From contig CANOSP010000002.1 of the NCBI GenBank assembly GCA_947569705.1, forward strand, positions 1-64,000: a stretch of 64,000 nt of DNA. The letters run 5' to 3'. The stretch is from an uncultured Erysipelotrichaceae bacterium (GTDB lineage: Bacteria > Bacillota_I > Bacilli_A > Erysipelotrichales > Erysipelotrichaceae). Below, piece after piece: positions 12,812 through 49,410 of this stretch. Positions within the stretch are counted from its first letter, which is position 1. Each line of letters starts with the position of its first letter. The translations under genes were made by a program, and so were the position numbers. A model generated the notes under the pieces. It searched no databases. It was not told the origin of the DNA and saw nothing but the letters and a program-made list of their open reading frames with translations.

Positions 12812-14173
12812 ATGGAGAGAAACGCTTTGAAGCAGCTAATTGAATGGAATCAAGCCAAACGCAGAAAACCGTTGATCGTATGGGGCGCACGACAGGTTGG
12901 AAAAACTTATTTGATTAAAGATATTTTTGCCGAAACCTGCTACAAAAACCGCACGATTTATATTGACTGTAAAATTGAGGATGAAATCAGAGCATTCTGT
13001 AACAGGAGTGCTGATGCTAAAAAAATCATTGAATTTATATCGCTGTTCAAAGGAAAACAAATAGATGAAAATACCCTGTTGATTTTTGATGAGGTACAAG
13101 AGTGTCCGAATATCATATCCGCATTAAAATACTTTTGTCAGGATTTCAGACATATTCCCGTTATTGCGACCGGTTCAATGGTTCGCATAAAGCTTGAAAG
13201 AGAAACCCGCAAACGCGGAACTGCGAATCATCATAAGTTTCTGTTTCCGGTCGGTAAAATCGATCAGCTGACAATTTATCCTATGAGCTTTGATGAGTTT
13301 TTAATGAATTCAAATCGTCCGCTGTTTAATGCGGTGAAAGCCGCTTATGAAAACAAAGAACCGTTAGCTGATGATATTCATACGCTTGCGATGGATCACG
13401 TATATAAATATTTGTTGATCGGCGGTATGCCGGAGGCTGTGGATGCTTATATTGAGGAAAACAGTCTTTTTCCTGCACAAGAAATATTAAAAGCATTATA
13501 TGATAATTATTTATCTGATATGGATTTATATCAGGCAAGCAGAGAAGCCGTATTACGTTCCCGAGCCTTATTTTCTAACATTTATCAACAACTGAATAAA
13601 GAATCTAAGAATTTTTCACCGAGTTTTTTAGAGGCGAACCGCAAAACCAGAGATTTTGAGGCTTCTGTTCATTGGCTTACGACTGCCCATATCATTCATC
13701 AATCGTTTCAGCTGAAGGAACACATTACGCTGCCGCTTATATCGGACAATTCAAATCATTTTCGTTTATTCTTGGCAGATATTGGTATGTTTTCTTATCA
13801 AAGCGGAATTAATGCGGCATCGTTTATCGCTAATGACAGGGAGAATACGTTGTCCGGTATTTTTTACGAAAACTTTGTCGCAAACGAGCTGTGCGCAAAG
13901 GGACTGAAGCTTTTTTACTGGCGAGGAAAAGCTTCTGCGGAGCTTGAGTTTATTATTGAGTCTGATAATAAGCTTTATCCGATTGATGTAAAAAAGGGCA
14001 GAGGGACATTAAACTCATTGTCTAAATTTTCTAATCATAATAAATTTGAAGCTGCGATTAAGGTTTCAAACGGTAATTACGATTATCACGTGGAACAAAG
14101 GCTGTTGACGATTCCGTTTTATTTTATTTCATTTGCGGCTGAGGATCTTGCGAAGGGAACGCTGAGGGTGTAA
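12812..14173 (+). CDS. AAA-family ATPase with DUF4143 domain
   Basis: A 453-residue protein of the widespread AAA_14/DUF4143 group. Near residue 26 it has a Walker A, WGARQVGKTYL; Walker B is LLIFDEVQEC; sensor residues lie in VIATGSMVRI. The C-terminal DUF4143 domain ends in a PD-(D/E)XK-like core (FYENFVANEL, then LEFIIESDNKLYPIDVKKGR). The biological role of these proteins is unsettled; links to mobile elements and toxin-antitoxin-like behaviour have been proposed. The start is ATG 12812 behind GCGGAGG. It stands alone on its own promoter. Confidence 0.85.
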   Translation: MERNALKQLIEWNQAKRRKPLIVWGARQVGKTYLIKDIFAETCYKNRTIYIDCKIEDEIRAFCNRSADAKKIIEFISLFKGKQIDENTLLIFDEVQECPNIISALKYFCQDFRHIPVIATGSMVRIKLERETRKRGTANHHKFLFPVGKIDQLTIYPMSFDEFLMNSNRPLFNAVKAAYENKEPLADDIHTLAMDHVYKYLLIGGMPEAVDAYIEENSLFPAQEILKALYDNYLSDMDLYQASREAVLRSRALFSNIYQQLNKESKNFSPSFLEANRKTRDFEASVHWLTTAHIIHQSFQLKEHITLPLISDNSNHFRLFLADIGMFSYQSGINAASFIANDRENTLSGIFYENFVANELCAKGLKLFYWRGKASAELEFIIESDNKLYPIDVKKGRGTLNSLSKFSNHNKFEAAIKVSNGNYDYHVEQRLLTIPFYFISFAAEDLAKGTLRV

Positions 14174-14247
14174 AGAGTTTTTTGATTATTAAGTTTTTTG
14201 GTAATAAATGATATAATCTTCTCGGATAAAAGAAAAGGAAAGTGCAT

Positions 14248-14829
14248 ATGATAAACAAAAAAGATTTAATAAAAAGTATTCTCATATTTTTGATATGCAT
14301 TCCGTTAAGTTACATATTTTATTGGTTTGTTAGTTTAAGAATAATTAATATCGTTTATTACATAGATACATTACCAAAAGGTATATTTTTATACTTTTGT
14401 CATATAATATTATTCTATTTTCTTACCAAGGTGGTATTCAGAATCAAATTATTAAATTTTGAAAAAATAATTTTGATCCTCACTTATTTTATTTTCTTAC
14501 TGTTATGCTTTTTTGACCGAGTTTATATAGGTGAAAGAGTTATAAATTTGAATCCGTTTGATTTGATAAATACTGTATATAATAACGGAATCATCGTATT
14601 GTTATTAAATATTGCTGTATTCTGTCCGTTTTATACCGCAATAAAATGGATAAATAAAAATACAAAACCTAAAATTGCTTTTATTATTTTCTTTCTATTT
14701 GCATTATCCGTAGAGATTATTCAATTTTTTACTATGAGTGGAATTTTTGATGTAATAGACATATCCTTATATGTTATCGGTTATTATTTAGGCTTTTTAA
14801 CTTATAAATATGTGTTATTTAAAGAGTGA
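14248..14829 (+). CDS. VanZ-like integral membrane protein
   Basis: A 193-residue, very hydrophobic protein with five or six membrane helices. The last part, LSVEIIQFFTMSGIFDVIDI then LYVIGYYLGFL, is the VanZ-family signature (EIIQ followed by a D/DI helix and Gly-rich helix). VanZ-like proteins have been tied to teicoplanin resistance and lipid handling, but most members have no known function. ATG 14248 is preferred: an AAAAGGAA ribosome binding site lies about 9 bases upstream. The gene is AT-rich and followed by a kilobase without genes. Confidence 0.7.
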   Translation: MINKKDLIKSILIFLICIPLSYIFYWFVSLRIINIVYYIDTLPKGIFLYFCHIILFYFLTKVVFRIKLLNFEKIILILTYFIFLLLCFFDRVYIGERVINLNPFDLINTVYNNGIIVLLLNIAVFCPFYTAIKWINKNTKPKIAFIIFFLFALSVEIIQFFTMSGIFDVIDISLYVIGYYLGFLTYKYVLFKE

Positions 14830-14900: not shown

Positions 14901-15047
14901 AACGTGGAAATGTGATCACTAATGATATACGTTATTCTTTTTTTGTATATGCATCGGTATCTTTCATGAACAGCAAAGTTCATTGAATCAACTTTGTTGT
15001 TTCTGATTTCCGTGTATGCGGAAATTCGCTGGTTATCTGTGTACATT
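14901..15047. repeat. Intergenic repeat block, copy A
   Basis: A 147-base unit about 88% identical (by eye) to copy B 377 bases downstream. Each copy contains the palindrome GTGATCAC, the inverted repeat TGAAC-N6-GTTCA and the hairpin ATTTCCG-N6-CGGAAAT, and ends in GGTTATCTGTGTACATT. Differences fall mainly outside the palindromes, and where they hit the spacer they keep the arms intact. It has no coding capacity. Confidence 0.85.
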
Positions 15048-15267: not shown

Positions 15268-15423
15268 GATTTCCACAAACGTGGAAATGTGATCACCAAT
15301 GATATACGTTATCCTTTTTTTGTATAAGTATCAGCATCTTTCATGAACAACAATGTTCATTAAATCAACTTTATTTCTCAGATTTCCGTGTATGCGGAAA
15401 TTCGACGGTTATCTGTGTACATT
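15268..15423. repeat. Intergenic repeat block, copy B
   Basis: The second copy of the block. It carries at its left end a full hairpin, ATTTCCAC-AAAC-GTGGAAAT, of which copy A keeps only the right half, and otherwise matches copy A from 15278 to 15423. The unit thus begins and ends with ATTTCC...GGAAAT palindromes. Confidence 0.85.
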
Positions 15424-15468
15424 ATTGGAAACACATAGAAGATATAATTTGTCAACCTTTTAGAGTAC

Positions 15469-15490
15469 GATTTCCGGGAACCCGGAAATC
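15469..15490. repeat. Perfect GATTTCCGGG/CCCGGAAATC palindrome
   Basis: A 10-bp perfect stem with a two-base centre, the third type of ATTTCC...GGAAAT hairpin in this gap. A fragment resembling the block interior (GATACGTTATTC) recurs near 15563, so a third, decayed copy may be present. Confidence 0.65.
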
Positions 15491-15631
15491 TGCCTATCAT
15501 CTATACACAATAAACACTATCTGTATATATAATGAATACATCACATTCATATATCCGTAGTGCGATACGTTATTCTTCCCATATGACCCCAACTTGTTTA
15601 CCACAAATACCGTATCGATCAGCATTTCTGC

Positions 15632-15660
15632 TTGCCAAACAAGCTTTTTTGTATTAGAAT
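15632..15660 (+). promoter_or_regulatory. Promoter of the aro-tyrA operon
   Basis: TTGCCA (15632-15637) and TAGAAT (15655-15660) with a 17-base spacer. Transcription would begin near 15667, just in front of the leader-peptide ribosome binding site. Confidence 0.65.
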
Positions 15661-15683
15661 ATTGACAAACGGAGGCATAAGAC

Positions 15684-15719
15684 ATGCGTAAAAATGCTTA
15701 TTTTTATTATTATGAATAG
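15684..15719 (+). CDS. Tyr/Phe-rich leader peptide of the aro operon
   Basis: An 11-residue open frame reading MRKNAYFYYYE and ending in TAG, with a strong CGGAGG ribosome binding site 8 bases before its ATG. Four of 11 residues are Tyr and one is Phe. It sits between the operon promoter and an intrinsic terminator ahead of a tyrosine-pathway operon, the layout of a ribosome-mediated transcription attenuator. A ribosome stalled at the Tyr codons (15699-15713) would cover the CATGCGTA segment at 15683-15690, which is otherwise free to pair with TACGCATG at 15741-15748. It is inferred from sequence only. Confidence 0.8.
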   Translation: MRKNAYFYYYE

Positions 15720-15721
15720 TT

Positions 15722-15808
15722 CCTATCAGTAAACCGGCTATACGCATGGGCTTTTTTGCTTCTGATAGGGAAAACAAAGCATCGTATCTATTCAAACGAT
15801 GCTTTTTT
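15722..15808 (+). terminator. Attenuator region and terminator of the aro operon
   Basis: Two mutually exclusive pairings are visible. CCTATCAG (15722-15729) pairs with CTGATAGG (15762-15769), or the leader-peptide start (15683-15690) pairs with TACGCATG (15741-15748), which is followed by GGGCTTTTTT. Downstream lies a perfect intrinsic terminator: AAAGCATCG (15776-15784), CGATGCTTT (15797-15805) and a T run. The 5' arm of that terminator can also pair with ATGCTT inside the leader frame (15694-15699). Which pairing is the antiterminator needs folding or experiment. Confidence 0.75.
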
Positions 15809-15847
15809 CTTAAAACAATGCTTTAACTGCAACAGGAGGTAAGCAAT

Positions 15848-16858
15848 ATGAAATTACATATGAATTTAGACGAACACAGTTATGATATTATATTAGAGCG
15901 CGGAAGCTTAAAACAACTGCGAAATTATATTGATGTAAATCATAAGATTCTCATAATCAGTGATGATAACGTACCGAGAGAATATATAGATACTGTCGCA
16001 GCGCAATGTCCGGAATGTTTTATCCATATTGTAAAGCACGGTGAACAGGCAAAATCACTTCACGTATTTGAAACGATTTGTGCCGATTTGCTGAAGCATC
16101 ACTTTTCCCGCAAAGATAAAATCATTGCATTAGGCGGCGGTGTGGTTGGCGATTTATCCGGTTATGTAGCGGCTTCCTACATGCGAGGAATTGATTTTAT
16201 TCAAATACCGACCACAACATTGTCACAGATTGATTCCTCCATCGGCGGAAAGGTTGCGATCAACTTTAACGGTGTAAAAAATGTAATCGGTGCCTTTTAT
16301 CAACCAAAGCTGGTGCTGATAGATCCAAACACGCTGAATACATTACCGCGCCGACATTATATTAACGGATTAGTTGAAGCGCTGAAAGCAGGATTGATCT
16401 ATGACTCTTCCTTGTTTGAACTGTTTGAAAATAAAGATATTGATCAGGATATTGATGAAATCATCGCTAAGGCATTGGCAGTAAAAAAAGCTGTGGTGGA
16501 ACAAGATGAAAAAGAACAGGGGTTAAGGAAGATTCTAAACTTCGGACATACAATCGGACATGCGATTGAAGCTGATAATCATCTTCATGATCTCTATCAC
16601 GGAGAGTGTGTGGCACTGGGAATGCCTTACTTTATGAGTGATAAGCAGCTTCGTGAGCGAACACAGGCGATCTGTAAAAAAATGGGATTGCCGAGTGAAG
16701 TTAGCGCTCATCATGCGAATTGGCTTTCCGTTATGCGTAATGATAAAAAAGCCGACCATGATAAAATCGATACCGTTTGGGTTCATGAAGCGGGACAGGC
16801 AGTGATCAAACAGATGAGCATAGCTGAAATCGCTGAACTTTTGGAGGATACACTATGA
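15848..16858 (+). CDS. aroB: 3-dehydroquinate synthase
   Basis: A 336-residue enzyme of the second shikimate step. It turns DAHP into 3-dehydroquinate using NAD+ and a divalent metal. The NAD-binding GGGVVGD lies at residues 96-102. The metal ligands are Glu177 (LVEALKAG), His234 (NFGHTIGH) and His251 (LYHGECVALGMP). PTTTLSQIDSSIGGK is the substrate loop. The start is ATG 15848 behind ACAGGAGGT. It is the first structural gene of the aro operon; its stop overlaps the aroC start by four bases. Confidence 0.96.
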   Translation: MKLHMNLDEHSYDIILERGSLKQLRNYIDVNHKILIISDDNVPREYIDTVAAQCPECFIHIVKHGEQAKSLHVFETICADLLKHHFSRKDKIIALGGGVVGDLSGYVAASYMRGIDFIQIPTTTLSQIDSSIGGKVAINFNGVKNVIGAFYQPKLVLIDPNTLNTLPRRHYINGLVEALKAGLIYDSSLFELFENKDIDQDIDEIIAKALAVKKAVVEQDEKEQGLRKILNFGHTIGHAIEADNHLHDLYHGECVALGMPYFMSDKQLRERTQAICKKMGLPSEVSAHHANWLSVMRNDKKADHDKIDTVWVHEAGQAVIKQMSIAEIAELLEDTL

Positions 16859-17973
16859 AAAATACAATCGGAAGGCATGTGTGCTGCACGATATTCGGAG
16901 AGAGCCACGGCAGTGCCATCGGTATTACCTTAGACGGATTGCCGGCAGGAATTGCGATTGATGAACAATTTATGCTGGAACAAATGGATAAACGCAAAGC
17001 AAAAGGCAGAATTTCTACCCAACGCCATGAAGCCGATCTCCCGGAAATCATCAGCGGTGTATTTGAAGGGTATACAACCGGTACACCGTTGACCATTTTG
17101 ATTCAAAACAATGATCAGCATTCCGCCGATTATGAAAAAACAAAGAATCGCTTGCGTCCCGCACACGCAGACTATACGGCAGATGTGAAATATCTCGGTT
17201 ATCAGGATTATCGCGGCGGCGGACATTTCAGCGGCAGAATTACGGCACCTTTGGTCGCGGCAGGTGCGATTGCCTTACAAATCTTAAAGGATCACAATAT
17301 TCAAATAGCGAGTCATATTTTAAAATGTCACACAGTCAATGACGATGCCTTTGATCAATCAGATGATCAGTTAAATGCGCAAATTCGCTCATTGCGTTCA
17401 GCATCATTTCCGACAATTCGTGAAGAAGCACAAACTGCCATGACCAAAGAAATCGAAGCCGCTGCTTCAAACGGTGACAGTGTCGGCGGAATTATTGAAA
17501 GTGCTGTAATCAACGTACCGGCAGGAATCGGTGAACCGTTCTTTGACTCACTGGAAAGCATTATCGCCCATTATCTTTACAGCATCCCGGCAGTCAAGGG
17601 AGTTGCGTTTGGACTGGGCTTTCGCTTCAGTGAGCATACCGGCAGTGAAGTCAATGATTCGATTGCCTTTGAAAATAACCGTGTTGTCACAAAGACCAAC
17701 AATAACGGCGGTATTAACGGCGGTATTTCCAACGGTATGCCGATCATGATTCAAACATGCGTCAAGCCGACGCCGTCCATATATAAGGAACAGGACACAA
17801 TTAACAAAGCTACTAAGCAAGCCGAAAAGCTGATTATTCAAGGTCGCCATGATCCGGCAATCATACATCGCGCCTGTGTGGTCGTTGACAGTGTATTAGC
17901 TTTAGCAATTTTAGATTGTATGATGGAAAGAAGTGCGGTACTGGCACTCCAAGATAAAAGAAAAGAGGATTAA
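16855..17973 (+). CDS. aroC: Chorismate synthase
   Basis: A 372-residue enzyme that makes chorismate from EPSP with reduced FMN. Signature blocks are FGESHGSAIG near the N-terminus, GGGHFSGRITAP, TKTNNNGGINGGISNGMPI for phosphate and flavin binding, and RHDPAIIHRACVVVDS near the C-terminus. Length is normal. It starts within the aroB stop codon (ATGA overlap), so translation is coupled. Confidence 0.96.
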   Translation: MKNTIGRHVCCTIFGESHGSAIGITLDGLPAGIAIDEQFMLEQMDKRKAKGRISTQRHEADLPEIISGVFEGYTTGTPLTILIQNNDQHSADYEKTKNRLRPAHADYTADVKYLGYQDYRGGGHFSGRITAPLVAAGAIALQILKDHNIQIASHILKCHTVNDDAFDQSDDQLNAQIRSLRSASFPTIREEAQTAMTKEIEAAASNGDSVGGIIESAVINVPAGIGEPFFDSLESIIAHYLYSIPAVKGVAFGLGFRFSEHTGSEVNDSIAFENNRVVTKTNNNGGINGGISNGMPIMIQTCVKPTPSIYKEQDTINKATKQAEKLIIQGRHDPAIIHRACVVVDSVLALAILDCMMERSAVLALQDKRKED

Positions 17974-17975
17974 TT

Positions 17976-18995
17976 ATGATTATCACAATGAAAAAAAATG
18001 CACCAAAAAAAGAAATCGATGCCTTAATGGGACGTTTGTCAGACCGCGGTCTGCATGTTCATTCAAGTATCGGTGAAAACTACAATGTATTCGGTTTGGT
18101 CGGCGATACCTCAATTATCGATCCGAAACAAATTGAAGCGAATCCTTATGTGGACAGCGTTGTGCGAGTTGCGGCACCGTATAAAAAGGCAAACCGTTTA
18201 TTTCATCCTGAAGATACAATCATTACGGTCGGTGATTATCGCATCGGCGGAAAGGAACCGCTTGTCGTAATCGGCGGACCTTGTTCCATCGAAGGCTTAG
18301 AGCCTACTTTACAAATTGCACAGGAAGTCAAAAAAGCCGGCGGATGCATGTTAAGAGGCGGTGCTTATAAGCCGCGTACTTCTCCATACGCATTCCAAGG
18401 TATGGGTACCGAAGGAATTTTAGCAATGTGTGAAGCACGTAAACAAACCGGATTACCGATTGTTTCTGAATTAATGAGTGCGGATAAATTAGATGAATTC
18501 GTAGAACATGTCGATATTATTCAAATCGGTGCGCGAAACATGCAAAACTTTGATCTGTTAAAAGCTGTGGGTAAGGTAGATAAACCCGTATTGTTAAAAC
18601 GCGGTCTTGCGAATACGATTGAAGAGTGGATCATGGCTGCGGAATATATTATGTCGGAAGGAAATGATAAAGTCATTTTCTGTGAACGCGGTATCCGTAC
18701 ATTTGAAAAATATACAAGAAATACTTTAGACCTAAGTGTGATTCCGATTATCAAAGAAAAAACTCATTTACCGATCATCATCGATCCGAGCCATGCGACC
18801 GGAGATTGGAAGCTTGTGGAATCTATGTCATTGGCTGCGATTGCGGCAGGCGCTGACGGCTTGATTATTGAAGTTCATGAAAATCCCGAATGTGCATGGT
18901 CTGACGGTGCTCAAACCTTAAAACCGAAGAAATTCGCTGAGCTGATCGAAAAAGGTCGCAGTATTGCCCGAGTCATCGGGAGGGATATTGCATGA
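17976..18995 (+). CDS. aroF: 3-deoxy-7-phosphoheptulonate (DAHP) synthase, type I-beta
   Basis: A 339-residue first enzyme of the shikimate pathway, condensing PEP and erythrose-4-phosphate. The N-terminal ~75 residues (MIITMKKNAPKKEIDAL onward) form the ferredoxin-like regulatory domain of the AroA(Q)/Thermotoga type, through which tyrosine or phenylalanine often inhibits. The TIM-barrel follows with GGPCSIEG, RGGAYKPRTSPYAFQGMG, QIGARNMQNF and IIDPSHATGDW. There is no chorismate mutase fusion. It sits two bases after aroC and overlaps aroA by four. Confidence 0.94.
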   Translation: MIITMKKNAPKKEIDALMGRLSDRGLHVHSSIGENYNVFGLVGDTSIIDPKQIEANPYVDSVVRVAAPYKKANRLFHPEDTIITVGDYRIGGKEPLVVIGGPCSIEGLEPTLQIAQEVKKAGGCMLRGGAYKPRTSPYAFQGMGTEGILAMCEARKQTGLPIVSELMSADKLDEFVEHVDIIQIGARNMQNFDLLKAVGKVDKPVLLKRGLANTIEEWIMAAEYIMSEGNDKVIFCERGIRTFEKYTRNTLDLSVIPIIKEKTHLPIIIDPSHATGDWKLVESMSLAAIAAGADGLIIEVHENPECAWSDGAQTLKPKKFAELIEKGRSIARVIGRDIA

Positions 18996-20260
18996 TTGCC
19001 AAAGTATTTCCCGGAAAATGCAAAGGTAAAATAACCATTCCCCCAAGCAAAAGCATGGCTCACCGTGCGATCATCTGTGCTTCTTTGGCAAAAGGTGTCA
19101 GCCGTATTGATAATGTTGCTTATTCACAGGACATTTTAACAACGATTGACGGTATGCGCACATTAGGAGCTGAAATTATTAAGCACGATGATTTCCTTGA
19201 GATCACCGGAATCGGTAATATAACCGACTGTAAGCATCAGGAAATATTTTGTAATGAAAGCGGTAGTACCTTGCGCTTCTTCATCCCGCTGTTTTCCTTA
19301 TGTAATAAGCGAATCGTTTTCAGCGGTAAGGGGCGCTTGATGGATCGTCCCCAAAGTGTTTATGAAAAAATCTTTAAAAATCAAGGTTTATTCTTTCAAC
19401 ATGAAAATGGAACCATTTCCATAGAAGGTGCTTTACAGGGCGGTGAGTTTATTTTAGACGGCGATGTATCCAGTCAGTTTATCAGCGGTCTGTTATTTGC
19501 CTTACCTCTATGTGATAAGCCTTCCACTATTGTGATCAAAGAACCGTTTGAGTCGCGCTCTTATGTGAATTTGACAATGCAGATGCTGGAACATTTCGGC
19601 ATTGAAGCAGAATTCAGTGATCCTAATACGATTTATATCAAAGGGAATCAGGAGTATCATTCCGGTTGTTATTGTGTAGAAGGTGACTTTTCACAGTTGG
19701 CATTTTTTGCCTGTCTCGCTGCTTTGAATCATGATCTTGAAGTGTGTGGGGTTCATCACAATTCCCGACAGGGAGATAAGGCTATTATGAAAATTTTAAA
19801 GCTGGCTCAAGTTCAATTTAAGGAAATTGTGAATGGTTATGCGGTTTGGAAAAGTGATCCTTGCGGTACTGTCATCGATTTAGCCGACTGCCCTGATCTC
19901 GGACCGATTCTTTGTGTATTTGCGGCTTTTTCCGACGGTTCTACTCATATCAAAAATGCCGGAAGATTGCGAATTAAGGAAAGTGATCGCATTGCGGCTA
20001 TGGAGTGTGAGTTGAAAAAGCTTGGTGTAAGCATTCGCAGTGATGAAAATGATATTTATATTGAGGGAAGCACTGCTTATGAAGGCGGGGTTGAATTTGA
20101 TGCACATAATGATCACCGTATTGTGATGAGTCTTGCGGTTGCGGCAACACTTTGTAAAAAGCCTTGCACGATACACGGTGCCGAGGCGGTACGAAAGTCT
20201 TATCCGCAGTTTTTTAATGATTTAACTCGCGTTGGCATTGAGGTGGAACGTTATGAATAA
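18992..20260 (+). CDS. aroA: EPSP synthase (3-phosphoshikimate 1-carboxyvinyltransferase)
   Basis: A 422-residue enzyme joining PEP to shikimate-3-phosphate. Motifs are PPSKSMAHRAII near the N-terminus, CNESGSTLRFFIPL for substrate and glyphosate-site residues, RIKESDRI, and DAHNDHRIVMSLAVAA near the C-terminus. In the SGS block the Gly-Ser-Thr order is standard; the more glyphosate-tolerant class II motif is not seen. It overlaps aroF by four bases upstream and tyrA by eight downstream. One copy of the dispersed TGGAA-N4-TTCCA motif lies within it. Confidence 0.95.
   Translation: MIAKVFPGKCKGKITIPPSKSMAHRAIICASLAKGVSRIDNVAYSQDILTTIDGMRTLGAEIIKHDDFLEITGIGNITDCKHQEIFCNESGSTLRFFIPLFSLCNKRIVFSGKGRLMDRPQSVYEKIFKNQGLFFQHENGTISIEGALQGGEFILDGDVSSQFISGLLFALPLCDKPSTIVIKEPFESRSYVNLTMQMLEHFGIEAEFSDPNTIYIKGNQEYHSGCYCVEGDFSQLAFFACLAALNHDLEVCGVHHNSRQGDKAIMKILKLAQVQFKEIVNGYAVWKSDPCGTVIDLADCPDLGPILCVFAAFSDGSTHIKNAGRLRIKESDRIAAMECELKKLGVSIRSDENDIYIEGSTAYEGGVEFDAHNDHRIVMSLAVAATLCKKPCTIHGAEAVRKSYPQFFNDLTRVGIEVERYE
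19408..19421. repeat. Dispersed TGGAA-N4-TTCCA motif (aroA copy)
   Basis: TGGAACCATTTCCA inside the aroA coding sequence. It is one of eight perfect-arm copies between 19.4 and 41.5 kb, and the same centre (CCAT) recurs at 30220. Confidence 0.7.
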
Positions 20261-21107
20261 GGATACTCGCTTTCTTTTTGTCGGTCTCGGTTTAATGGGC
20301 GGCAGTTACGCCTATGCGCTGTCAAAACGCGGTTATCATGTCGCAGGCATCGATATTAATCAGGATAGTATTGACTTTGCATCGGCAAACGGTATCATTG
20401 AAAAAGGCGCTTGTTTTGATGTGGATCTCATTCACGAAGCTGATGTAATTTTCTTTGGATTATATCCGAATACGATGGTTGCTTGGATCGAGGAAAATCG
20501 CAGTTTGTTTAAAGCTGGCTGCTTGATCAGTGATGTTGCCGGTGTTAAATGTCATGTCGTTGATCGTGTGCAGAAATTGTTAAAGGATCTTCCGGTAGAG
20601 TTTATCGCTTCGCATCCGATGGCGGGCAAGGAAGTCAGCGGTGTGAAATATGCCAATGATCAAATGTTTCAACAGGCTAATTTCATTATCACTCCGACCG
20701 ATAAAAATACAGACAGCGCTGTTTCGTTTTTAAAGGAATTTGCGAAGGAGCTTAATTTTGCGAATATCAGTATTTTAACGCCTATGAAGCATGATGAAAT
20801 GATCGGTTATGTTTCGCAGCTGACTCATGTGATCGCAATTTCATTGATGAATGCGAATGATAATCCTGATTTAGTGAATTATACCGGTGACAGTTTCCGT
20901 GATTTAACACGTATTGCCCGAATCAATGAACATTTGTGGACGGAGTTGTTCTTTTTGAATAAGGATAATTTGATTCGGGAAATTGATGATTTTGAAGCGG
21001 CATTGCAGGCGTTGAAGCAGACACTGCTTGATGAAGACGGCGATACGTTGAAGCAGATGATGATTACCTCAACGCAAAGACGCAGTCGCTTTGATAAGAA
21101 GAAATAG
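20253..21107 (+). CDS. tyrA: Prephenate dehydrogenase
   Basis: A 284-residue NAD(P)-dependent enzyme that converts prephenate to 4-hydroxyphenylpyruvate, the committed step to tyrosine. The Rossmann loop is FVGLGLMGGSYAYAL near residue 8, followed by SHPMAGKEVSG with the catalytic His and QLTHVIAISLM in the dimerisation domain. There is no ACT domain. ATG 20253 overlaps the end of aroA and is the better start; the longer frame from 20232 would add residues not seen in the family. As last gene of the operon it explains why the leader peptide is Tyr-rich. Confidence 0.93.
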   Translation: MNKDTRFLFVGLGLMGGSYAYALSKRGYHVAGIDINQDSIDFASANGIIEKGACFDVDLIHEADVIFFGLYPNTMVAWIEENRSLFKAGCLISDVAGVKCHVVDRVQKLLKDLPVEFIASHPMAGKEVSGVKYANDQMFQQANFIITPTDKNTDSAVSFLKEFAKELNFANISILTPMKHDEMIGYVSQLTHVIAISLMNANDNPDLVNYTGDSFRDLTRIARINEHLWTELFFLNKDNLIREIDDFEAALQALKQTLLDEDGDTLKQMMITSTQRRSRFDKKK

Positions 21108-47145: not shown

Positions 47146-47658
47146 TTATTTTTTTATACGTAACGGTTTACCGTGATTGACCTTCTCTTTCAACAACTCC
47201 CTCACTTCAGCTACCTGATCATCGCAGACTTCCTTCCAAATCATCGTAAAGAAATCTTTCTGATACAACAAGAATGCATCCTTTGTCTCAAAGCATTGAT
47301 GATACTGATCCCATGATCGATACACAAGATTGTTACCTTCACCGAAACTCACACCATCCTCATCCAACACTATCGTAGAGTGATCCTGTTCATCCTCATA
47401 CAAACTGCGATATGCGGCTTTCGGAATCTGAACCTCACACACATAATTACACAGAAGACTCACAATAAACAAAACCGCAACGATTCCGTTCATCCACCCA
47501 TAATCCTTATCAAACCCCAAATCCATCACCAAGCCAAACACCAACAAACAAAAGCTCAGCACCATCGACCGACGAATATGAAACTTAATATGACAGTGCG
47601 CTCGATAAATACGAGTAAAAACAGACTCACTGATTCGATACGATTTTTCAATCCTCAT
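47146..47658 (-). CDS. YcxB-like membrane protein
   Basis: A 170-residue protein. Two membrane helices (about residues 32-47 and 55-72) are followed by a YcxB-like C-terminal domain (IVLDEDGVSFGEGN, YRSWDQYHQCFETKDAFLLY, DFFTMIWKE), a PH-like fold. Function unknown. Its start codon overlaps the serS stop, so it is co-translated with serS, and shares the T-box-controlled transcript. Confidence 0.7.
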   Translation of the reverse strand: MRIEKSYRISESVFTRIYRAHCHIKFHIRRSMVLSFCLLVFGLVMDLGFDKDYGWMNGIVAVLFIVSLLCNYVCEVQIPKAAYRSLYEDEQDHSTIVLDEDGVSFGEGNNLVYRSWDQYHQCFETKDAFLLYQKDFFTMIWKEVCDDQVAEVRELLKEKVNHGKPLRIKK

Positions 47659-48944
47659 TACTGCTTAGGCTCCAGCTTCTCAACACCACCCATATACGGA
47701 CGCAAAGCCACAGGTACATTCACACTTCCGTCCTCATTCAAATTATTCTCCAAGAAAGCAATTAACATACGCGGCGGAGCGACCACTGTATTATTCAATG
47801 TATGAGCGAAATACTTACCGTCTTCACCGTTGACTCTAATCTTCAAACGACGTGCCTGAGCATCCGTTAAATTAGAACAGCTGCCTACTTCAAAATACTT
47901 TTGTTGGCGCGGACTCCATGCTTCAACGTCCACAGACTTCGTTTTCAAATCAGCCAAATCACCGGAACAGCACTCCAAAGTACGAACCGGAATATCTAAA
48001 CTACGGAATAAATCCACAGTATTCTTCCACAGCTTCTCATACCATTGTGCACTTTCCTCAGGTTTACAAACAACAATCATTTCCTGCTTTTCAAACTGAT
48101 GGATACGATACACACCACGTTCTTCAATTCCATGCGCACCCTTCTCCTTACGGAAACAAGGAGAATAACTTGTATAAGTAAAAGGCAGCTGTTTCTCATC
48201 CAAGATCGTATCGATAAACTTTCCGATCATCGAATGCTCACTCGTACCGATTAAGAACAAATCCTCGCCCTCAATCTTATACATCATACTTTCCATTTCC
48301 GCGAAACTCATTACACCGGTAACAACATTACTGCGAATCATATACGGCGGAATTACATACGTAAAGCCACGGTCAATCATAAAATCACGAGCATAAGAAA
48401 TTACCGCAGAATGCAGACGTGCAATATCACCCATCAAATAATAAAAGCCATTTCCGGCAACCTTACGAGCGCTGTCCAAATCAATGCCGCAAAAGCGCTC
48501 CATAATTTCAGTGTGATAAGGAATTTCAAAGTCAGGAACCACAGGATCACCGAAACGCTCTAATTCAACATTTTCCTCATCAGACTTGCCGATCGGAACA
48601 CTCGGATCAATCATATTCGGAATCTGCATCATTAACTCTTCCAACTTTTTCGAAACCTCTGCTTCCGTTTCCTCTATCTGCTTCATTTCTTCCGCCATCG
48701 CAGAAACAGCCTTCTTCATCTGTTCCGCTTCCTCACGCTTGCCCTCTTTCATCAAGCCGCCGATTTGCTTACTCATAGAATTACGCTGCGCTCTTAAATC
48801 ATCACCGCGCTGTTTTAACGAACGATTCTCCTTATCCAACGCAATTACTTCATCGACAAACGGAAGTTTATGATCTTGAAACTTCTTCTTGATGTTCTCC
48901 TTCACTTCCTCCGCATGCTCTCTGACAAACTTCATATCTAACAT
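47658..48944 (-). CDS. serS: Seryl-tRNA synthetase
   Basis: A 428-residue class II synthetase. The N-terminal long coiled coil (about residues 25-105) grips the tRNA-Ser variable arm. Catalytic motifs: FRKEKGAHGIEERGVYRIHQ (motif 2), LIGTSEHSMIG in the Ser site and ARRLKIRVNG then PPRMLIAFLENN (motif 3). The leader carries a serine T-box. Stop overlaps the YcxB-like gene. Confidence 0.96.
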   Translation of the reverse strand: MLDMKFVREHAEEVKENIKKKFQDHKLPFVDEVIALDKENRSLKQRGDDLRAQRNSMSKQIGGLMKEGKREEAEQMKKAVSAMAEEMKQIEETEAEVSKKLEELMMQIPNMIDPSVPIGKSDEENVELERFGDPVVPDFEIPYHTEIMERFCGIDLDSARKVAGNGFYYLMGDIARLHSAVISYARDFMIDRGFTYVIPPYMIRSNVVTGVMSFAEMESMMYKIEGEDLFLIGTSEHSMIGKFIDTILDEKQLPFTYTSYSPCFRKEKGAHGIEERGVYRIHQFEKQEMIVVCKPEESAQWYEKLWKNTVDLFRSLDIPVRTLECCSGDLADLKTKSVDVEAWSPRQQKYFEVGSCSNLTDAQARRLKIRVNGEDGKYFAHTLNNTVVAPPRMLIAFLENNLNEDGSVNVPVALRPYMGGVEKLEPKQ

Positions 48945-49102: not shown

Positions 49103-49404
49103 AATAAAAAAGGCACTGCCCGAAAGGGACGAATGCCTCGTGTTGCCACCCTTTTTCATCCATAAACACAAACTCGATCATTACAACCCGAGCAATCGAT
49201 CCGTTCATAAAATATAAAACAAACAGTCTGTGCTTATCAACCTCTCAAACGTGATAACGGTACGACCGAAAGTGATTACTAAATTAATTACAATATTTCC
49301 TCACTTTGCTCAAAGGGGGATTCCAAAACGGATTCGGATTGCTCGCACCAACCGTAATCTCTCTGAAACAAAATCACATTTTGTACTATTCCTTATCAAC
49401 GCTT
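49103..49404 (-). ncRNA. Serine T-box riboswitch
   Basis: The minus-strand leader contains AAGGAATAGTA near its start, the AGAGAG and GGTTGGTGCGAG stem I blocks, and the T-box AAAGGGTGGCAACACGAG. An intrinsic terminator lies at 49102-49137. The discriminator-pairing bulge reads TGGC, which fits the G73 of tRNA-Ser. A TCC codon in GGAATCCCC near the end of stem I is the likely specifier. Uncharged tRNA-Ser would stabilise the antiterminator. Confidence 0.9.
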
Positions 49405-49410
49405 ATTTAT

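Follow-up and report, generated by a model that had tools for sequence, protein, structure and literature searches.

The question raised by this locus is whether the DNA in front of aroB encodes a leader in which a translating ribosome decides if the operon behind it is transcribed. The operon, aroB-aroC-DAHP synthase (aroF)-aroA-tyrA, occupies positions 15848-21107 on the plus strand of the window, by which we mean the whole 64,000-nucleotide stretch that was analysed; it was assigned from NCBIfam matches and ORF spacing, and its five ORFs are near-overlapping. The original prediction had placed a promoter, a Shine-Dalgarno (SD) site, the short frame MRKNAYFYYYE, stems and a terminator 5' of aroB, and all of these were found, at 15632-15808. 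We consider it likely, at a probability of about three in four, that the element is a ribosome-mediated transcription attenuator that reads tyrosine supply in the form of charged tRNA-Tyr.

The region, all of it on the plus strand, begins with a promoter (TTGCCA-17-TAGAAT, 15632-15660) that scored 10/12 in a consensus scan, and congeners carry a like -35/-10 pair at the same distance. The leader's own SD, GGAGG (15671-15675), opens segment A (15671-15690), which also takes in the spacer and the start codon region. The peptide frame and its stop run from 15684 to 15719, with ATG at 15684 and TAG at 15717-15719. Directly 3' of the stop codon is segment B (15722-15729), followed by segment C' (15734-15735), the CC of a CC..GG mini-hairpin recognized from the alignment and from the pairing specificity described below; C' is short in the window's genus and reads CCAU or CCAA in other genera. 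Further downstream are segment C (TACGCATGG, 15741-15749), which can pair with A or, through its GG, with C', a run of six T (15752-15757) that joins C in pairing with A in the minimum free energy (MFE) fold, and segment D (15762-15769), the partner of B. An intrinsic terminator with its T tract (E:F, 15776-15807; hairpin 15776-15805, then T) lies between the leader and the first gene, as in an attenuator. Two perfect stems are present: CATGCGTA (15683-15690) with TACGCATG (15741-15748), within A:C, and CCTATCAG (15722-15729) with CTGATAGG (15762-15769), forming B:D. Relative to shuffles, the folding z score was -2.5 for the whole leader and -6.9 for the terminator alone. Among the 105 SD-led short frames of the window, the only one with five or more Y/F in six residues was this leader.

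Of 60 relatives, 49 yielded an aroB. The leader was detected in genera beyond the window's own with a covariance model (R1) built on six congeners, and more leaders came from a second model (R2); the loci were read by eye. The layout was found at 33 loci in at least 17 genera of the family Erysipelotrichaceae, 17 of them before aroB (mostly Tyr), six before aroF (Tyr) and ten before aroE-aroK (more Phe). Every congener that has aroB also has the leader, which reads MRNNAYFYYYE, MRKNAYFYYYE (twice) or MRMSKMYYYYE; that of L006 has a longer frame in which the Tyr run keeps its place. Examples of the other leaders are MHNKGYYYYR, MHTSNYFYYYE and LANKKMYYFS before aroB, MHLATSSVFYFYFQ and MKQSIRLNAYFTFR before aroE-aroK, and MLKFNLNHSYYYYYR before DAHP synthase. 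The window's own genome encodes a second leader, MKLHHSFFYCFTFR, before a fused aroE-aroK gene (L084:1331-1480; contig C17, near 37821), and has no such leader at pheA. An R2 search across the order gave no match outside the Erysipelotrichaceae, about 43 of the 315 genomes searched lying outside the family.

The composition of the leaders is regular in some respects and loose in others. None of the 33 contains a Trp codon; those before aroB and aroF are rich in Tyr, and in those before aroE Phe outnumbers Tyr. In 30 of 33 the stop follows the last aromatic codon with exactly one codon in between, and the first aromatic codon falls anywhere from position 3 to 11. Y and F interchange, the length of the run and the residues upstream of it vary, and the last residue can be E, R, Q, S, L, K or C. 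With an SD or a start at the 5' end, a conserved frame and a Tyr/Phe run, the leaders have the regulatory codons of a ribosome-mediated attenuator. The original prediction had named in advance what would speak against such a device, close relatives lacking the Tyr run or the stems, and this was not seen: congeners and other genera alike retain the leader frame with its run, the two crossing stems and the terminator, and compensatory changes are found. In L006 and L074 the stop codon is shifted and the frame extends into B or D; these leaders are degenerate copies, a variant or sequence errors.

Pairing between segments was examined by a cross-pairing test, in which the pairing energy of nine segments within their own leader was compared, over 22 divergent leaders, with that of segments taken from different leaders. 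B:D was clearly native-specific (-11.7 vs -4.4 kcal/mol, z -10.5), as were the terminator E:F (z -5.8), which is present in all members, A:C (z -4.9; -10.7 vs -7.9 kcal/mol with the 20 SD-bearing leaders) and the small C':C helix (z -3.9). The remaining combinations of the 36 included no native-specific pair in the 22 leaders, in a test that is blind to invariant or tertiary contacts. Pair counts in 11 leaders gave 25 cells changed on both sides vs 6.9 in shuffles, and slid versions of the count were all far lower. Since the segments are ordered A, B, C, D and pair as A:C and B:D, one helix crosses the other, which by the usual rule makes them mutually exclusive, although both may form at once as a pseudoknot. 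A:C is weak in several relatives (-2.6 to -6 kcal/mol), and B:D should therefore be the default there. The stems that the original prediction called competing do compete, A:C against B:D, but not with the terminator; its further point, that the start codon is part of a stem and folding is set against translation, agrees with A:C, which holds both the leader SD and the start.

Folded without a ribosome, the window and its relatives adopted A:C, with the leader SD and start hidden. When the nucleotides around Tyr codon 6 or 8 were masked, B:D replaced A:C in the window and likewise in every relative folded except L006, whose frame is altered; a ribosome at the stop codon gave A:C again, so that the helices formed in masked folds are mutually exclusive and depend on ribosome position. 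At Tyr codon 9 or 10 the MFE structure remained A:C. E:F was retained in every folded state.

In B. subtilis, NusG-dependent pausing involves TTNTTT at -11 to -6 and a hairpin that lies 11-12 nt 5' of the RNA end, and N81 and T82 of NusG read the motif (PMC12288461). The T-run of the window is a match to this motif; it begins 3 nt past the C helix, and C':C is short there, only CC:GG. An exact TTNTTT directly 3' of the GG of the C helix was found in 15 of 34 leaders (5000 shuffles: mean 3.1, maximum 11), with T invariant at motif positions 5-6 and present at position 4 in 32 of 34. Motif and hairpin together resemble a B. subtilis-type pause, the exact motif being found in under half of the leaders. 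The organism's own NusG reads VRNTPGV and has the N81/T82 pair, as does PDB chain 8ehq_G, which we take to be B. subtilis NusG. The paused RNA 3' end is predicted at about 15762, the first base of D, where A, B and C would have been made and D would not. A pause site at the TTNTTT after the C helix is an element newly predicted by this analysis.

In a textbook attenuator the antiterminator has one arm in common with the terminator. Cross-pairing of the 22 leaders revealed no segment upstream with E or F as its native partner and hence no shared arm; what would connect the switch to termination is therefore missing, and we file the element as an attenuator-like variant and not as a textbook member. 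Several candidates for this link were tried and rejected. Two possible antiterminators, 15713-15726/15781-15794 and 15694-15705/15771-15782, are complementarities of the window that are absent beyond its closest relatives. A pseudoknot of UGCUU(U) (15757-15761) with AAAGCA in E is good in L002 and L068 and fails in L006, L007, L067 and L070, and in most leaders the D-E gap of 2-9 nt is too short for it to reach across B:D. The T-run and the A-rich spacer were not a native-specific pair, and L074 and L075 have no A-runs; E makes only 3-4 pairs with C or with the start codon; and A:C as a separate terminator would have a loop of about 50 nt, with D made too late to oppose it. Also observed was an RCAUC core in the 5' arm of the terminator (15776-15784), kept in L005, L006 and L069 though the 3' arm differs. 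The core occurs in one of 18 terminators in the window, and two relatives have GCAC instead.

These features suggest the following course of events. As read from the order of the segments, RNA polymerase would make A, the leader, B and C and pause at the T-run (TTNTTT) while D is still to emerge, and a ribosome would load at the extreme 5' end and translate the 11 codons. With ample tyrosine, the ribosome would reach the stop, cover B and depart; C and the T-run would then capture the leader SD and start in A:C, B:D would be excluded and the terminator would halt transcription. With scarce tyrosine, the ribosome would be held on the Tyr run, A:C would be blocked, B:D would form as D emerges, and the polymerase would read through into aroB-tyrA. 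We infer that the leader senses starvation, and the odds that B:D is the readthrough state seem to us somewhat better than even. B:D does not overlap E:F, and the stalled ribosome and B:D may jointly hinder the terminator hairpin physically. A more specific form, which we hold to be doubtful, is an attenuator that is gated by the pause and needs no antiterminator: NusG would hold the polymerase before D, a ribosome parked on the Tyr codons would keep the SD/start stem open, and B:D would bring that ribosome beside the nascent terminator, blocking E:F. If true, it would make leader-peptide sensing usable where polymerase may outrun the ribosome.

A second architecture was found in the same family, upstream of aroB at six loci (L014, L016, L034, L036, L037 and L038). 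These have a Tyr/Phe run ending at the stop, a terminator and the aroB operon, and most of them have a weak SD or none and a frame that begins close to the 5' end predicted for the RNA. Unlike in the window type, an antiterminator sharing an arm with the terminator is present: D pairs with the leader end or, as a classical antiterminator, with the terminator (-17.4 kcal/mol native vs -13.3 permuted, p 0.008). This sister group bears on a reading with the opposite RNA logic, a serious possibility although an unlikely one, in which the ribosome, when it stalls at the last aromatic codons, covers the outer, GC-rich end of B; B:D then fails to form and readthrough follows, which makes B:D the OFF state. 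In the sister loci B extends over the last codons and the terminator is a partner of D, and pairing of the leader end with D frees the terminator. The opposite logic also accounts better than the main reading for the constant one-codon spacing of stop and last aromatic codon (30/33), set beside a first aromatic codon that wanders from 3 to 11, and B:D would be its default where A:C is weak. In the window type, however, a free D has no terminator partner, D:E and D:F not being native-specific, and loss of B:D therefore has no visible way to stop E:F; moreover, a stall at the first Tyr codon would leave B free.

The exact spacing from aromatic run to stop, with B directly after it, would also suit an arrest peptide, in which free tyrosine or phenylalanine would prevent release at the stop, the part played by tryptophan in TnaC, and the parked ribosome would cover B. 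This seems very unlikely, for known arrest peptides have conserved residues, and here Y and F interchange and the run length, the upstream residues and the last residue are all variable. A constitutive terminator combined with translation control, or with a T-box-like tRNA sensor, is scarcely credible. C does carry UGG followed by N, as T-boxes do where they meet the tRNA 3' end, and A:C does hide an SD. The hidden SD, however, is that of the leader, and the region with the aroB SD (segment "post") has no native-specific partner. A tRNA-Tyr would call for U after UGG in a T-box, whereas the base is G or A in the window's genus, and the Tyr run stands strictly in frame behind an SD and a start codon. 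A covariance-model scan for the T-box (RF00230) gave no match at 15600-15860, yet one was found 33 kb away in the same window (49122-49408, minus strand, 113 bits); by eye, the ORF that follows it (47658-48944) resembles a seryl-tRNA synthetase. The organism thus has T-boxes, and none is used for the aro operon. That the frame is a random one which happens to lie near an ordinary promoter and terminator is a negligible possibility: Tyr/Phe codons are likely in AT-rich DNA, but 20 block-shuffled windows yielded one frame with at least five Y/F in six residues among 2710, and conservation over 17 genera with compensatory changes refutes it.

No description of the Tyr/Phe element was found in the literature searched, and no Rfam family matches it: nine relatives scanned gave no Rfam match, and Phe_leader (RF01859) scored 22 bits against a gathering score of 55. 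Phe_leader and E. coli-type attenuators resemble it in having a leader with regulatory codons, alternative hairpins and a terminator; they differ in the antiterminator overlapping the terminator, which is wanting in the aro leader here. B. subtilis tlrB (yxjB) is an experimentally tested comparison: its leader peptide, NusG pause and terminator need no overlapping antiterminator, since the terminator is hindered by the stalled ribosome itself (PMC6851288). Both have a short leader peptide, lack an overlapping antiterminator and hide the leader SD in a hairpin, and the NusG-dependent pause and pause hairpin that time translation in tlrB have their counterpart here in the predicted pause (PMC6851288). 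In contrast, tlrB responds to tylosin arrest and not to amino-acid supply, its ribosome hinders the terminator directly, and it has no crossing B:D helix (PMC6851288).

The original prediction regarded ribosome-mediated attenuation sensing Tyr codons as unusual in Firmicutes. Control by leader peptides does have precedents in this group. Leader-peptide transcription attenuation was proposed from comparison for his operons of the Erysipelotrichales, the same order, in the portion of PMC9413887 that we draw on; there too the leader holds repeated codons for the regulatory amino acid and precedes a terminator, but the operon is his, the attenuator and antiterminator hairpins are classical, and that portion reports no NusG pause or start-codon stem. 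In Acholeplasma, uORFC-13-1 before aroF has a promoter, an RBS, a short uORF with Phe codons, one extra stem, a terminator and an aromatic gene; compared by description, it differs in being confined to Acholeplasma and environmental sequences and in that its U-run codes for Phe (PMC8632094).

Work cited in PMC9226507 reports that RNA polymerase in B. subtilis outruns the ribosome, and amino-acid leader peptides should therefore be hard to use. One bacterial family nevertheless seems to rely on leader peptides at three aromatic operons and has a T-rich pause motif where the decision would be taken, suggesting ribosome-based amino-acid sensing, a style of control thought rare in this bacterial group. 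Whether polymerase and ribosome are coupled, or a programmed pause takes the place of coupling, is a question testable here, in a family that has two architectures, one with and one without an antiterminator.

Other features were noted upstream of the aro promoter. The ORF at 12812-14173 encodes a 453-residue protein with only a weak DnaA/Hda-like match at its N-terminus. Between the ORF at 14242-14829 and the aro promoter, a 98-base unit occurs twice with 90% identity (14901-14998 and 15278-15375), and the same stretch contains three copies of a 46-base unit with GATTTCCG..CGGAAATC hairpins (15002-15047, 15378-15423 and 15466-15511).
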